The position numbers were made by a program, and so were the translations under genes. The notes under the pieces were generated by a model. The model was not told the DNA's origin. It made no database searches and saw nothing but the letters and a program-made list of their open reading frames with translations. Shown in pieces: positions 1,569-7,143 of a DNA stretch of 64,000 nucleotides (position 1 is the first letter of the stretch; each line of letters begins with the position of its first letter). Source of the stretch: Sphingomonadales bacterium (GTDB lineage Bacteria > Pseudomonadota > Alphaproteobacteria > Sphingomonadales > Sphingomonadaceae); contig CANIRZ010000001.1 of assembly GCA_947470185.1 (NCBI GenBank), forward strand, positions 1-64,000, read 5' to 3'.

Positions 1569-1982
1569 CTATTTTTCTGTACCCCGCGACTTACCCCATT
1601 GGCGGGCAGCGGTGTACCCCAGATACCCCGTGCCAAACAGCGCGTATAGCGGTTCGGGAAGGCCATTGAGATAGGCATTCATGCCCAAAGCAATGTTAGC
1701 GGCTTTGTCAGGCGCGACAGCGGCGATTAGCCCCATGGGTATGGACCATAACAGCATGATATATATCACATACAGGAAGCTTGGGCGTGCGCGGCTGGTC
1801 CACGGGTCCGCCGACTGCGCCTCGGCAAGAATGGCGGATAGTTGCGTGCGCAGGGCATCCATGTCCTGACTACCTTGCAGTTTGATGAGTTCAAGCTTGG
1901 CTGCATCGCGCGCCCTTGGATCAGGAATGATCTTATCGATCAGGTTTGCGATTGGCCCAATTATGCCTTCGAGGAGTGACAT
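1569..1982 (-). CDS. 3-TM holin, GTA_holin_3TM-like
   Basis: MSLLEGIIGPIANLIDKIIPDPRARDAAKLELIKLQ...DPWTSRARPSFLYVIYIMLLWSIPMGLIAAV...; matches the pattern of the GTA holin family (PF11351); directly follows an endolysin gene. Confidence 0.8.
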   Translation of the reverse strand: MSLLEGIIGPIANLIDKIIPDPRARDAAKLELIKLQGSQDMDALRTQLSAILAEAQSADPWTSRARPSFLYVIYIMLLWSIPMGLIAAVAPDKAANIALGMNAYLNGLPEPLYALFGTGYLGYTAARQWGKSRGTEK

Positions 1983-2006: not shown

Positions 2007-2555
2007 TTAGCCAATTCGGTTTGCGAGCCAGCCGTATAAAAACGCTTCTTGCGCGGGGCGGGATTCTGCCAAGTGGACATAATGTGCGCCTTGCAAGGCA
2101 TCGATCGCCTTTGTCAGGACAGGTTCGGCAGAGGGGCCGCGACAACGGAAGAATGCTTGCACGGCGCGCAGCGTTTCGGAGCCGATTTTCCGGTCGACGG
2201 CGATGTCGGCATAGTCGCGGCCATTGCGGTTGAGGGCGTTCAGCGCGCGTTGCAAAAATCCGATGGCGGTTCCTGTACCCATGTTGACGCCGGTGTCGAA
2301 CATCTCCGCCGCAAGTTTCGGCGCAAGGCGTTCCAATTGATCAAAGGCTGGCGCCCGCCAATATAACCGTTTGTACATTGCGGCGGCGACGTTGCGCGGT
2401 AGCGTGCTCATGTCGCCCATATAGCCGTGACGGCGGGCAACTGCCTGCGTAATACCCCACCGGGTTGGGCCACCTTTGTCCGCCGGATGGTCCACAAAGT
2501 CGCCTTCGCGGGCAATCAGTTCGTCAATCAATTGGTCAATATGGTCTATCACCAA
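2007..2555 (-). CDS. GH108-type N-acetylmuramidase / endolysin
   Basis: IDELIAREGDFVDHPADKGGPTRWGITQAVARRHGYMGDM...; E-G-(x)-DKGGPT-WGIT signature of GH108/PG_binding_3 lysozymes. Start TTG 2555 or GTG 2552, GAGG upstream. Confidence 0.85.
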   Translation of the reverse strand: MVIDHIDQLIDELIAREGDFVDHPADKGGPTRWGITQAVARRHGYMGDMSTLPRNVAAAMYKRLYWRAPAFDQLERLAPKLAAEMFDTGVNMGTGTAIGFLQRALNALNRNGRDYADIAVDRKIGSETLRAVQAFFRCRGPSAEPVLTKAIDALQGAHYVHLAESRPAQEAFLYGWLANRIG

Positions 2556-2577
2556 AACACCCTCACTTTCGAATCAA

Positions 2578-2600
2578 CAAATAACCCATATGGTTATTTG
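2578..2600. promoter_or_regulatory. 9-bp perfect inverted repeat upstream of the endolysin
   Basis: CAAATAACC-CATAT-GGTTATTTG. Confidence 0.55.
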
Positions 2601-2608
2601 TAGGAAAG
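2598..2608 (-). promoter_or_regulatory. Shared motif CTTTCCTACAA upstream of the lysis cassette (copy 1)
   Basis: Gene-direction CTTTCCTACAA, 42 bp before the endolysin TTG; identical to 6581-6591 before the DUF6456 gene. Confidence 0.5.
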
Positions 2609-2677
2609 CAAAATCTGCACGGCGGTTGCTGGCGCGGTGGCTGCGGGTCCGAGATGTTATGATGTTAGGAATTTAAT

Positions 2678-2754
2678 TGGTCGGGACGACAGGATTCGAA
2701 CCTGCGACCCCCACACCCCCAGTGTGATGCGCTACCAGGCTGCGCTACGTCCCG
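2678..2754 (-). tRNA. tRNA-Pro (GGG)
   Basis: CGGGACGTAGCGCAGCCTGGTAGCGCATCACACTGGGGGTGTGGGGGTCGCAGGTTCGAATCCTGTCGTCCCGACCA; cloverleaf, encoded CCA. Confidence 0.95.
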
Positions 2755-2935
2755 ACCGCCGCTGTCCTCGCTGAGGTCAGTGGAAGCGCGCGTATATGGC
2801 GCTGGTTTTTGAAAAGCAAGCGCGCTCTCGACGCTTTGACGTTGCGTCAATGAGGTGCAGGTGATAATCGCGCCCGATTGCTTTAGGGCAACGCTTTTAT
2901 CGGGCGTCACATTATACAACTTGCGAGGGTTTTCC

Positions 2936-3262
2936 ATGGAGTCTCTAATCTTGAACGTCGCCGCTGGTGGGGCTGGTGGTTCTGCATTTTTTGTGCAGTT
3001 GTTTCCGCTCCTGCTGATCTTTGTCGTTTTTTACCTTTTCCTCATCCGCCCGCAACAAAAGCGCGCGAAAGAGCATGAAGCCAAAATCAACGCGGTGCAA
3101 AAGAATGACGAAGTCGTCACCGCTGGCGGCTTGATGGGCAAAGTGATCAAGGTCGCTGACGATTATGTTGAAGTCGAAATTGCACCAAATGTGCGGGTGA
3201 AGGCTGTGAAGTCGACCATCGCCAACGTGCAATCACGCGGAACCAAAGCTGCCAATGATTAA
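2936..3262 (+). CDS. yajC: Preprotein translocase subunit YajC
   Basis: FPLLLIFVVFYLFLIRPQQKRAKEHEAKINAVQKNDEVVTAGGLMGKV; upstream of secD. Confidence 0.95.
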   Translation: MESLILNVAAGGAGGSAFFVQLFPLLLIFVVFYLFLIRPQQKRAKEHEAKINAVQKNDEVVTAGGLMGKVIKVADDYVEVEIAPNVRVKAVKSTIANVQSRGTKAAND

Positions 3263-3330
3263 CCGCTGGGGTTGAATGGCTGACGGCCCAACCCCAATTT
3301 TTGCTTTTCCAGTTCGTTCGGACCCAGCCT

Positions 3331-4929
3331 ATGCTTGATTTTCCCCGTTGGCGCGTATGGATGCTCAACACGCTCATCATTTTCGGTGTGCTTTTTGCTA
3401 TCCCCAGCCTTCTTCCGGTGCACATGCGCGATCAACTTGCACAATTTGTGCCGGCGCCAGCGATTAATCTTGGGCTCGACCTAGCTGGTGGCAGTCACAT
3501 TCTGCTTGAAGCCGATACATCGCAGCTCGGCGAAACGCGGCTTGAGGCATTGGAAGATAGCGTGCGCACCGCAATGCGCCGCGCAGAACCGCAGATCACC
3601 ATTTCCGATGTGTCGCGGGCCGATGGGAAGCTTAGTTTTACGGTCACCGATGTGTCTAAGGTCGATGCAGCGCGCACGGCGCTCATCCCTTTAACGAGCA
3701 ACACATTGGGCAGCCGCGACTGGAATATCGCGGTCACCGATGGCAATCGTTTCATCGTCACGCCAGAGGGGACGGGTAACGAAAACGCCCTTGATCAGGC
3801 AATGGATACAGCCAAGGATGTTATTGATCGCCGTATTAATGCGCTTGGAACGCTTGAGCCAACGATCATTCGTCAAGGCGATAATCGGATTGTGGTCCAA
3901 GTGCCTGGCCTCGATGACCCAGCTGCCTTGAAAGCGCTCATCGGTAAAACCGCAAAACTTGAATTCAAGCTGGTTGATGAAATGGCCGACCCTGATCAAA
4001 CCGCAAAGGGTAAGGCCCGTGTCGGTAGTCAAGTTCTGCCCTATCCGAACAATCCTTCCGGTTTGCCGAATATCGCGGTGCGCCGTCTGGGTGGCATCTC
4101 TGGCGATAAGCTGGTTAAGGCTGATCCCACATTTGACTCACAGACCAACGAACCTGCGGTCACTATTCAGTTCGACTCCGAAGGCGGCCAAAGATTCGCC
4201 CGGATGACCCAGCAAAATGTGAACAAGCTGTTCGCCATCATATTGGATGGCCAAGTTATCTCCGCACCGCAAATTCGGGAGCCAATCTTCGGCGGGGTTT
4301 CCCAGATTTCGGGCAGCTTCACCACAGAAAGCGCCAATGCGCTCTCCATTTCGCTGCGCTCGGGTGCTTTGCCGGTCGACCTCAAAATTGTTGAGGAACG
4401 TTCGGTTGGTCCAGACCTTGGCGCTGACTCCATCCGCCGCGGCGTGTTGGCGGCGGTTATTGGTACGACCGCTATCCTCGTACTCATGTTCCTCGTCTAT
4501 GGCAGGTTCGGCATGTATGCCAATTTTGCTTTGGTCATTAACATTGCCATGATTTTGGGCGTGATGGCACTCGTGAATGCGACATTGACCTTGCCGGGCA
4601 TCGCAGGCTTCGTTCTGACGATTGGGGCAGCAGTGGACGCAAACGTTCTGATTAACGAGCGTATTCGCGAAGAATTGAAACGGGGCCGGCGCATCGTGCA
4701 AGCGATTGAGGTTGGTTACAAAGAAGCGAGCCGCGCGATTTTTGACGCGAACAGCACCAACGTAATCGCGGCCGTTCTGTTGTTTATCTTTGGCTCGGGC
4801 CCAATCCGTGGTTTTGCGGTGGTTCTGATGATCGGGATTGTGACGTCGGTGTTCACCGCCGTGACCATCACCCGCATGTGGGTATCGCGCTGGGTTAAGC
4901 GCACCCGTCCTACTGAACTGACGATTTGA
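3331..4929 (+). CDS. secD: Protein translocase subunit SecD
   Basis: LGLDLAGGSHILLE; GAAVDANVLINERIREELKRGR; start trimmed to MLDFPRW. Confidence 0.97.
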   Translation: MLDFPRWRVWMLNTLIIFGVLFAIPSLLPVHMRDQLAQFVPAPAINLGLDLAGGSHILLEADTSQLGETRLEALEDSVRTAMRRAEPQITISDVSRADGKLSFTVTDVSKVDAARTALIPLTSNTLGSRDWNIAVTDGNRFIVTPEGTGNENALDQAMDTAKDVIDRRINALGTLEPTIIRQGDNRIVVQVPGLDDPAALKALIGKTAKLEFKLVDEMADPDQTAKGKARVGSQVLPYPNNPSGLPNIAVRRLGGISGDKLVKADPTFDSQTNEPAVTIQFDSEGGQRFARMTQQNVNKLFAIILDGQVISAPQIREPIFGGVSQISGSFTTESANALSISLRSGALPVDLKIVEERSVGPDLGADSIRRGVLAAVIGTTAILVLMFLVYGRFGMYANFALVINIAMILGVMALVNATLTLPGIAGFVLTIGAAVDANVLINERIREELKRGRRIVQAIEVGYKEASRAIFDANSTNVIAAVLLFIFGSGPIRGFAVVLMIGIVTSVFTAVTITRMWVSRWVKRTRPTELTI

Positions 4930-4939
4930 GGATATTGAT

Positions 4940-5926
4940 ATGAAACTGCTCAAAGTCGTTCCTGACGATACCAACATCGACTTTCTCAAATGGCGGAACT
5001 TGGCCTTTGGCGTCAGTTTGTTGCTCATGATTGCATCGATTGGGTTGGTTGCCACCAAGGGTTTGAACTTTGGCGTCGATTTTATCGGTGGCCAGATGAT
5101 CCGTGCGACGTTCACGCAGACGGCCGCCGCACCTGTGGCCGAACTGCGCGAAACAGTTGGCAGTCTTGGTTTTGGCGACCCGACCATTCAGCGTTTTGGC
5201 GCCGAGAACCAGGTTTCAATCCGCATGAAGTTGCCCGCCGGCGCGGATAAGAATCCCGAGATCGCTAACGCAATGGCGGAAAAAATCACGAACAAGCTCA
5301 AGGCCGATCATCCCGATTTACGGATTGACGGCGTTGACTCTGTGTCTGGCAAGGTTTCGCAGGAATTGTTTAGCAAGGGCGTCCTTGCATTGCTGGCGGC
5401 GATGGCGGGTGTTTCGATCTATATCTGGTTCCGGTTTGAATGGCAGTTCGGGGTTGGGGCGATTTGGTCGCTGATGCACGATGTGACGCTGACCTTCGGA
5501 TTGTTTGCGCTTACAGGGTGGGAGTTTGACCTCAACATCATCGCGGCTTTGCTGACGATTATCGGCTATTCCTTGAACGATACGGTTGTTGTGTATGACC
5601 GTATTCGCGAGAATCTGATGAAATTCCGTAAAATGGAAATGGCGTCGCTTTTGAACCTGTCCGTCAACGAAACCTTGTCTCGTACGGTGATGACCAGCGT
5701 ATCGATTTCGCTGCCGTTGATCATATTGGTGCTCTTTGGACCGGATGTTATCTTCGGTTTCAGCGCTGCAATGGCATTTGGTATTGTCGTCGGAACTTAT
5801 TCCTCGATTTATCAGGCGGCCCCCATATTGATCTGGCTCAAAGTCGGCTCGCACAGCTTTGTGCCAACCGATGACGCCAGTTCAAAGGCGGAGCGGATCG
5901 GCGAAAACTTCGGCGCGAAGCCTTAA
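4940..5926 (+). CDS. secF: Protein translocase subunit SecF
   Basis: FGVDFIGGQMI; IGYSLNDTVVVYDRIREN; follows secD. Confidence 0.97.
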   Translation: MKLLKVVPDDTNIDFLKWRNLAFGVSLLLMIASIGLVATKGLNFGVDFIGGQMIRATFTQTAAAPVAELRETVGSLGFGDPTIQRFGAENQVSIRMKLPAGADKNPEIANAMAEKITNKLKADHPDLRIDGVDSVSGKVSQELFSKGVLALLAAMAGVSIYIWFRFEWQFGVGAIWSLMHDVTLTFGLFALTGWEFDLNIIAALLTIIGYSLNDTVVVYDRIRENLMKFRKMEMASLLNLSVNETLSRTVMTSVSISLPLIILVLFGPDVIFGFSAAMAFGIVVGTYSSIYQAAPILIWLKVGSHSFVPTDDASSKAERIGENFGAKP

Positions 5927-5987
5927 CGCTTCAGTACGGCCGGTGGTTCGCCGAAACGGAAGGCAATTGCGCGCGCATTTCCCTGTT

Positions 5988-6551
5988 TTATAATGTGCGC
6001 ACGAGCCGGACTGCCTTTGCAATCCAAGCCGGATCGGCGACAACTTGTTGTCGTGCTCCAGCTTCAAGTGGCAACAGATGCAACTTCCCTGCGTCACGGC
6101 CGAGCAAGCGGCCAAAGATGAAGCGACCACCAGGGCGCGGGACAAGGACGTCCAGATTGAGCGCAGAGGCAAAGTCGTCGGGCTGAAGCTGTTCAAGCCA
6201 TAATTCGTCCCCGCGCCGATATTCCCCCAATGCCGTCGCAATCCGAAGCCCGACCATCGTCGCGCCGACATTGGGAACCATTATACGTTCCTCCTTAGAC
6301 GGAGCGTGCGTGCCATCATCATGCAGTATAGCAGCGACGGGAAGATATTGCTGGTCAGGCAGAGCAACGAGGTCACTCGATTCCACACCCAAAGCGTCCG
6401 CGATACGGTTAATCCAGATCAGCGACAGCACCCGCATCCCTGTTTCAAGGCGACCGATGGTCTGCGCAGTCGTCGGCGGATTACAGCGCATAGCCACATC
6501 TGCAAGCGTGAGGCCTTTGGCCCTTCGTACATCGCGAATTCGACTTTGCAT
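5988..6551 (-). CDS. XRE-family regulator with S24-like C-terminal region
   Basis: MQSRIRDVRRAKGLTLADVAMRCNPPTTAQTIGRLETGMR (HTH) followed by GDELWLEQL...DVLVPRPGGRFIFGRLLGRDAGKLHLLPL; divergent from the DUF6456 gene. Confidence 0.8.
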   Translation of the reverse strand: MQSRIRDVRRAKGLTLADVAMRCNPPTTAQTIGRLETGMRVLSLIWINRIADALGVESSDLVALPDQQYLPVAAILHDDGTHAPSKEERIMVPNVGATMVGLRIATALGEYRRGDELWLEQLQPDDFASALNLDVLVPRPGGRFIFGRLLGRDAGKLHLLPLEAGARQQVVADPAWIAKAVRLVRTL

Positions 6552-6580
6552 GAATTACTCCTTCACCAAATAGGTTTTTT

Positions 6581-6591
6581 CTTTCCTACAA
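6581..6591 (+). promoter_or_regulatory. Shared motif CTTTCCTACAA upstream of the DUF6456 gene (copy 2)
   Basis: 42 bp before ATG 6634; identical in sequence and spacing to the lysis-cassette copy. Confidence 0.5.
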
Positions 6592-6633
6592 TATTTACCA
6601 CATGGCAAGGGTGATTCGCGTAGTCACAGGAGA

Positions 6634-7143
6634 ATGCCCATGCCAGCCAAGTCGCTTTCCAAACGTAAATTCCATGATCCGCGTATGTTGGTGGAGCATG
6701 CCGTGGCCGAAAATGGTGAAAGCATAGCCCACCGTACCATCACCATAAACCTGTCTGAATCGCCCTTGTCCTGGCTGCACGCGCGCGGCCATTTGTCCAA
6801 CCGGCAGATGTTGGCGGGCGAAACCTTGCGGGGGGATTATGAGTCAGCGGCGCTTGCGCCACATGTTACCATGTCGTGGGAGAATATTCCGCGCAGCCGG
6901 CAAAAACGCAGCGCACCATCAGGCTTAAACCGCACTGAAAGGATGATGAGTGCAAAGGCACGCTTCGATAACGCTTTGACCGCGCTTGGTCCCGACCTGT
7001 CAGATATTGCATGGCGCGTCATTTGTGTTGGCGAAAGCGTGCCGATTGCCGAACGCGAGATGTCATGGCCCGTGCGTTCAGGAAAACTAGTGTTAAAAAT
7101 CGCATTGGACCGGCTCGCGGTTTATTACCGTATTCCTGGTTAG
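6634..7143 (+). CDS. DUF6456-domain protein (GafA C-terminal / GafZ-like candidate)
   Basis: ALTALGPDLSDIAWRVICVGESVPIAEREMSWPVRSGKLVLKIALDRLAVYYRI, typical of DUF6456; N-terminal ESPLSWLHARG. Confidence 0.75.
   Translation: MPMPAKSLSKRKFHDPRMLVEHAVAENGESIAHRTITINLSESPLSWLHARGHLSNRQMLAGETLRGDYESAALAPHVTMSWENIPRSRQKRSAPSGLNRTERMMSAKARFDNALTALGPDLSDIAWRVICVGESVPIAEREMSWPVRSGKLVLKIALDRLAVYYRIPG

Follow-up and report, generated by a model that had tools for sequence, protein, structure and literature searches.

The analyses presented here indicate that a short promoter motif marks, throughout the family Sphingomonadaceae, the switch region of genes for the production and release of gene transfer agents (GTAs), virus-like particles that carry DNA between bacteria. 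The motif was met in a 64,000-nucleotide stretch of a Sphingomonadales genome (contig CANIRZ010000001.1, positions 1 to 64,000; hereafter the window), where CTTTCCTACAA lies upstream both of an endolysin–holin gene pair and of a gene for a DUF6456 protein; judged from their domains, these are the lysis module and the regulator GafZ of an alphaproteobacterial GTA. The motif is very probably a promoter element of the GTA regulon. As read from the promoter sequences, the control site is made of two elements, TTTCCTACA and a palindrome, AACC-N5-GGTT, which are ordered differently at gafZ and at the lysis genes. On balance, and with some reserve, we favour the fuller statement that this is a GTA-regulon promoter at which GafZ reads TTTCCTACA and an XRE protein represses through the palindrome.

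As a first-pass annotation of the window had reported, CTTTCCTACAA occurs without mismatch at both promoters (Table 1). The bare 11-mer is weak (with up to two mismatches the window gives 9 matches, 10 being expected from shuffled sequence), and the 1.48-Mb assembly contains three exact copies; its significance thus derives from context and from conservation in the family, not from the 11-mer alone. When the regions upstream of gafZ and of the lysis genes were read from 121 Sphingomonadaceae genomes, [TG]TCCTACA was found before gafZ in 81 of 91 cases and before lysis genes in 67 of 82 (0.7 and 0.42 in shuffled regions), and with one- or two-base variants these counts rise to 88/91 and 75/82 promoters. 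Some of the gafZ misses (e.g. genome G005; G and L numbers designate genomes and loci) arise because a longer N-terminus puts the promoter outside the fixed 330-base stretch that was read. A second set of GTDB genomes, which may partly overlap the first, has the motif at 51 of 53 gafZ and 16 of 18 lysis promoters, and in G064 a single variant, CTTTCCTATTCGAACC, is common to both promoters. A chance origin is ruled out by this conservation together with the reversed-pattern control given below. Recent duplication, which the first-pass annotation had considered unlikely, is likewise ruled out: the genes and their flanks are unrelated, and the motif is retained across genera.

The combined pattern TCCTACA-N{1,4}-AACC-N5-GGTT yielded 82 matches in 59 of the 121 genomes, and the reversed pattern one. 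By position, 50 of these sites belong to lysis genes, 16 to small-terminase-like genes, nine to tail-fibre-type genes, and three to a candidate structured non-coding RNA (ncRNA) lacking any open reading frame (ORF), with four left unassigned; 78 of the 82 therefore precede GTA-type genes or the ncRNA. The 16 small-terminase-like genes are mutually alike, and the two that were tested match phrog_4044 (terminase small subunit); the one tail-fibre-type gene tested matches phrog_12296. Within the window's own assembly, sites are found at the lysis genes, at gafZ, at a small-terminase-like gene (C3:2702, L009) and at an ORF-less position (C1:90801, L003). The regulator gene and the lysis and accessory GTA genes consequently have a control site in common, as had been proposed from the two window promoters only. 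Since the site is conserved family-wide and is hardly found elsewhere than at GTA genes, it is neither a motif scattered through the genome nor one missing upstream of orthologues, the two outcomes that had been named as counting against that proposal. We also observed that the small-terminase-like helix-turn-helix (HTH) gene family (GWTPERQRAFIEALADTGCV...), with its common promoter, lies apart from the main GTA cluster in many sphingomonads.

The two elements are arranged in a promoter-specific manner. Upstream of gafZ the palindrome is 5' of TTTCCTACA, beside the divergent xre gene, with a flexible gap of mostly 6–9 nt, and a degenerate palindrome copy, CC-N5-GGCA, follows 3' of TTTCCTACA at a fixed distance, all 61 of the matching cases reading TCCTACA-N13-GGCA. 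In the lysis promoters the palindrome is 3' of TTTCCTACA, after 2 nt (37 cases) or 3 nt (12 cases), TCCTACA-N2/N3-AACC-N5-GG being found in 49 of them. The promoter of the main GTA cluster has the palindrome (AACC-N5-GGCA/GGTT), with TTGACA where TTTCCTACA would be (consensus TAACCtaTtTGGcacTTTtnt-TTGACATcGTcACGCTntTtGGTTAgAgAAacGGAACATCGCGATagaccGAtTCG over 24 clusters); the window's own assembly, which is 63% complete, gave no PF04860 match, and the cluster was read instead in G066, of the same genus (locus L080). When positions are counted by hand starting at the gafZ palindrome, where the gap varies by a few nucleotides, TTGACAT and TCCTACA stand in equal register, and TTTCCTACA therefore occupies the −35 position. 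In three lysis promoters (G048, G054 and G070) TTGACA/T substitutes for it. No sigma-70 promoter-like match was obtained in window positions 2400–6800.

Several details of the first-pass description have to be revised accordingly. ACC(A)-type and TGATTCG blocks do follow the motif at both promoters, but the block written as ACCA(T/C)ATGG belongs to the separate element AACC-N5-GGTT / CC-N5-GGCA and is placed differently at the two. GATTCG is enriched after the gafZ motif (18/74, 0.9 expected), though in some lineages only (5/61 at lysis genes, 0.7 expected). The identical distance of exactly 42 bp to the start codons TTG 2555 and ATG 6634 is not supported, as these codons are not conserved: where the window reads TTG 2555, relatives carry CCG or ACG, and the endolysin starts at least one codon later (GTG 2552 in the window), and many close DUF6456 relatives align from residue 3 (ATG 6640). 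With starts probably at GTG 2552 and ATG 6640 the distances are likely 45 bp (endolysin) and 48 bp (gafZ), and the equal spacing is probably coincidental. A shared operator or activator site, including autoregulation of xre, had also been suggested; such autoregulation is plausible, given that the palindrome beside xre is kept in five of the ten genomes with xre and without gafZ, but the site comprises two elements in differing order.

This architecture also bears on who might bind. XRE might bind the whole composite site, TTTCCTACA included, and be the sole shared regulator; xre lies divergently beside gafZ in the gafZ loci read, is encoded in 115 of the 121 genomes, and the two elements usually co-occur. 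We nevertheless consider this improbable: the elements are ordered one way at gafZ and the other way at lysis genes, with variable spacing (mostly 6–9 nt and 2–3 nt, respectively), they separate in G024, G011, G048 and G107, and main-cluster promoters have the palindrome without TTTCCTACA. The least credible of the alternatives has CtrA, or an alternative sigma factor with no connection to GTA regulators, recognising the element. In its favour, CtrA controls gafA in Rhodobacter capsulatus (PMC6363796), and TTTCCTACA does not correspond to the −35 hexamer of sigma-70; however, CtrA sites are TTAA-type repeats (TTAA-N7-TTAA), whereas the consensus here, TAACC-N5-GGTTA, is inverted, the −10 regions differ (GGCAAG at gafZ, GGTTAT at lysis genes and another again at the main cluster), unlike promoters of one sigma factor, and sites almost always precede GTA-type genes or the ncRNA.

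The predicted fold of GafZ suggests how TTTCCTACA could be read. In the AlphaFold model the helical C-terminal part has per-residue confidence (pLDDT) values above 90, and the best Foldseek matches are all −35-binding sigma-4 domains (3vfz, 3vep, 3hug, 2h27), with template modelling (TM) scores of 0.75–0.86 among the top matches; for 3vfz_A the score is 0.86 to the target, with a root-mean-square deviation of 1.2 over 58 columns. As the E-values are weak (about 1.0), the assignment relies on the TM-score and on the top hits being all of one kind; on the model, the C-terminal domain of GafZ has a fold resembling that of sigma region 4, with which sigma factors recognise −35 elements. A sigma-like HTH has been reported in GafZ and GafA (PMC11150451, PMC9638019). 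The XRE protein combines an N-terminal HTH with an all-beta C-terminal domain that matches the lambda-186 hybrid repressor (4e-5) and LexA (2e-4). As read in the alignment consensus, the catalytic Ser and Lys are both not kept, so RecA-triggered self-cleavage is not expected, and XRE is probably a non-cleavable LexA/CI-like repressor.

In several other alphaproteobacterial families gafY lies between xre and gafZ; in the sphingomonad gafZ loci read, xre is divergent from gafZ and directly abuts it. When gafY was sought through PF08299 in 61 genomes of the family, DnaA alone was found in most, and in the window's incomplete assembly nothing significant besides DnaA; a few additional copies turned up, including two close to a phage portal gene. 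A GafY orthologue elsewhere in the family was dismissed because this search gave only DnaA in most genomes; by the same search GafY, a protein with DnaA domain IV, is missing here, whether as a fusion with GafZ or as its neighbour. The chief rival explanation starts from this absence: TTTCCTACA might be bound by another activator that replaces GafY, with GafZ acting only as an antiterminator at the main cluster. We regard it as rather unlikely. It accords with Caulobacter, where GafY rather than GafZ occupies about 18 accessory promoters (PMC11150451), with the absence here of the gene that in other Alphaproteobacteria sits between xre and gafZ, and with the shortness of the window GafZ, which at 169 aa consists of little more than the DUF6456 domain. 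Yet no second regulator lies beside gafZ or the lysis genes in the loci read, exact TTTCCTACA before xre is mostly lost where gafZ is lost, and TTTCCTACA is located at the very position that a sigma-4-like domain would be expected to contact.

A further candidate reader is DnaA itself, or a protein with DnaA domain IV, for which TTTCCTACA would be a variant DnaA box. It agrees at six of nine letters with the DnaA box, TTATCCACA. The N-termini of GafY and GafA resemble DnaA domain IV (PMC9632790, PMC9638019); but the CCACA end that DnaA requires is not kept, and the motif is absent from gafYZ loci of other families that encode a DnaA-like GafY, which makes this reading very improbable.

We propose, then, that TTTCCTACA takes the place of the sigma-70 −35 hexamer, which is why these promoters would need an activator, and that GafZ reads it as a substitute −35 contact through its sigma-region-4-like domain. 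GafZ would thereby activate its own gene, in a positive feedback, together with the lysis, small-terminase-like and tail-fibre genes, and XRE would repress gafZ, the lysis genes and the main GTA cluster from AACC-N5-GGTT and regulate its own gene. We infer the pairing of elements with proteins and the direction of regulation from the observed conservation, positions, regulon content, predicted folds and patterns of gene presence and absence. In agreement, the R. capsulatus regulator GafA binds both its own promoter and that of the lysis genes (PMC6363796), and a GafA from which the DnaA-like N-terminal domain is missing retains the ability to activate the gafA promoter (PMC9638019).

The presence/absence patterns are as follows. 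DUF6456 (GafZ) is encoded in 104 of the 121 genomes. Among the ten genomes that have xre and lack gafZ, the palindrome before xre is exact in five (G008, G010, G011, G048 and G107) and TTTCCTACA in two (G010 and G044); G024, which has gafZ and no xre, retains TGTCCTACA and has lost the palindrome. In G048 and G054, where no gafZ was found, the lysis promoters carry TTGACT or TTGACA for TTTCCTACA and retain the palindrome. Replacement by a −35-type hexamer thus occurs in 2/2 genomes without gafZ and in 1/80 with it (p = 0.001), in contrasts that are few, post hoc and made with no correction for relatedness or descent.

That limit weighs against assigning TTTCCTACA to GafZ, as do several other points. 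G070 has gafZ and yet a TTGACA-type replacement at its lysis promoter, with the palindrome retained; G048, without gafZ, retains TTTTCCTACA before a small-terminase-like gene; and the main-cluster promoters of the family have TTGACA instead of TTTCCTACA. Moreover, in Caulobacter the main cluster is the sole place where GafZ was found, GafY driving the accessory promoters (PMC9632790, PMC11150451), and activation of the R. capsulatus endolysin required full-length GafA (PMC9638019).

At the main cluster itself the −35/−10 spacer is conserved (TcGTcACGCT), and in about half of the 24 clusters a G+C-rich hairpin and then a T-rich stretch follow the leader, before the first gene; such a putative early terminator is as expected if GafZ is an antiterminator, possibly one loaded in the manner of Q-type antiterminators. 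A conserved leader, GGAACATCGCGATAnnnCGATTCG, was observed 3' of this promoter (L080–L099, L298–L316). More tentatively, as a possibility that falls short of probable, GafZ of sphingomonads may be a stand-alone sigma-4-like protein that reads the −35 element on behalf of the housekeeping RNA polymerase at every accessory GTA promoter, hence a promoter-switching factor though an antiterminator elsewhere, at promoters that would also drive a structured RNA of about 340 nt.

The RNA in question is a candidate new structured ncRNA under a GTA-type promoter. The ORF-less L003 site heads a stretch of about 340 nt that ends in a hairpin and a T-run, and conservation starts at the promoter. Within Sphingorhabdus its identity is 84–99%, and several genomes seem to have two copies. 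Its fold is better than those of 100 of 100 shuffled sequences (z = −3.0), and RNAalifold gave four pairs changed on both sides, with 8 of 930 cells broken; no Rfam family matched. G016, from another genus, has two copies, 72% alike mutually, with the same promoter and a short common core. A family-wide search with one DNA pattern, which diverged copies would escape, returned only the two known genera and chance-like hits. The element is closed, 400 bases from the promoter, by ATTTCCTACAA on the opposite strand (G000:C1:91203-91213 (−)), with no palindrome; in most relatives TTTGTAGGAAAT is conserved at this closing site.

The window is assigned to Sphingorhabdus (family Sphingomonadaceae) on the near-identity of its GafZ to those of that genus (98%). 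The lysis module and gafZ lie roughly 5–10 kb apart in many genera, so their linkage is conserved; in the window secD/secF (3301–5926) sit between the lysis module and xre–gafZ. A tRNA-Pro(GGG) gene (window 2678–2754, minus strand), in the same orientation as the lysis genes, is immediately 5' of their promoter, and the endolysin genes of G120, G096, G082 and G005 are likewise preceded by tRNA-like sequence.

Table 1. Features of the proposed GTA control regions; positions refer to the window unless a locus or contig is named.
Feature	Position	Strand	Remarks
CTTTCCTACAA, −35-position element of gafZ promoter	6581..6591	+	Exact match; core TCCTACA 6584-6590
CTTTCCTACAA, −35-position element of endolysin/holin promoter	2598..2608	-	Exact match; core TCCTACA 2605-2599
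ACC-AAATA-GGTT palindrome between xre and TTTCCTACA	6565..6576	.	Proposed XRE operator O1; conserved in xre–gafZ intergenic region
CC-ACAT-GGCAAG, degenerate palindrome in −35/−10 spacer	6598..6609	.	Proposed operator O2; fixed N13 spacing
AACC-ATATG-GGTT directly 3' of TTTCCTACA, lysis promoter	2583..2595	.	Proposed XRE operator
TGATTCG, presumed gafZ leader	6612..6618	+	GATTCG enriched; also in main GTA leader consensus
TGATTCG, presumed lysis leader	2570..2576	-	From sequence; lineage-limited
GTA endolysin (GH108 + PG_binding_3)	2007..2555	-	PF05838 6e-24, PF09374 5e-18; start probably 2552
GTA holin (GTA_holin_3TM)	1569..1982	-	PF11351 2e-29; 3' of endolysin
gafZ (DUF6456), 169 aa	6634..7143	+	PF20057 5e-39; start probably 6640; sigma-region-4-like C-terminal fold
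xre, 187 aa, HTH + S24/LexA-like C-terminal domain	5988..6551	-	Pfam HTH_31/HTH_3; RogA-like repressor candidate
Candidate ncRNA	L393:1553-1901 = G000:C1 about 90830-91180; G016 L324, L325	+ (L393); - (L324); + (L325)	Behind TTTCCTACA + AACC-N5-GGTT
Small-terminase-like loci	L009, L161, L178-L180, L183, L188, L189, L191-L195, L323, L326, L327		

Among known systems, the GafYZ–RogA circuit of Caulobacter crescentus (PMC9632790, PMC11150451) is alike in having a gafZ homologue, a LexA-like XRE candidate repressor near the gaf genes, and accessory genes distant from the main cluster under joint control; its gaf operon activates itself, which for sphingomonad gafZ is only proposed. It differs in that sphingomonads are without gafY, that their accessory promoters have TTTCCTACA at −35 in place of a far-upstream GafY site and IHF, and that the proposed operator is AACC-N5-GGTT, not the GGAA-N4-TTCC of RogA. 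Further, RogA was detected at gafYZ and CCNA_02002 alone, but the palindrome also occurs in the promoters of lysis, small-terminase-like and fibre genes and of the main cluster. RogA, too, is reported to lack the catalytic Ser/Lys; for the sphingomonad XRE the fold matches HTH + S24-like and the residues were read from the consensus. Similarly, LexA and lambda CI have an HTH, an S24-like C-terminal fold and a palindrome beside their own gene, and differ from the sphingomonad XRE, in whose alignment consensus the catalytic Ser/Lys positions are not kept. R. capsulatus GafA (PMC6363796, PMC9638019) is one regulator for its own and the lysis-cassette promoter, as proposed here, and has a C-terminal sigma-like domain; it differs from sphingomonad GafZ in its fused, DnaA-like N-terminal domain and in being controlled by CtrA and quorum sensing, and its binding elements have not been mapped at base resolution. 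Among the other families whose gaf loci were examined, which did not include R. capsulatus itself, none had the sphingomonad motif.

Finally, GTA activators were previously without a known base-level recognition code, and none was derivable in Caulobacter, where no GafY motif was found (PMC9632790, PMC11150451). The motif described here is a candidate for such a code in a large bacterial family, and it allows GTA accessory genes (lysis, small-terminase-like and tail-fibre genes, and an RNA) to be discovered from sequence alone. The role of GafZ at promoters becomes a simple binding or reporter question, and the findings suggest that a GTA circuit may be workable without GafY.

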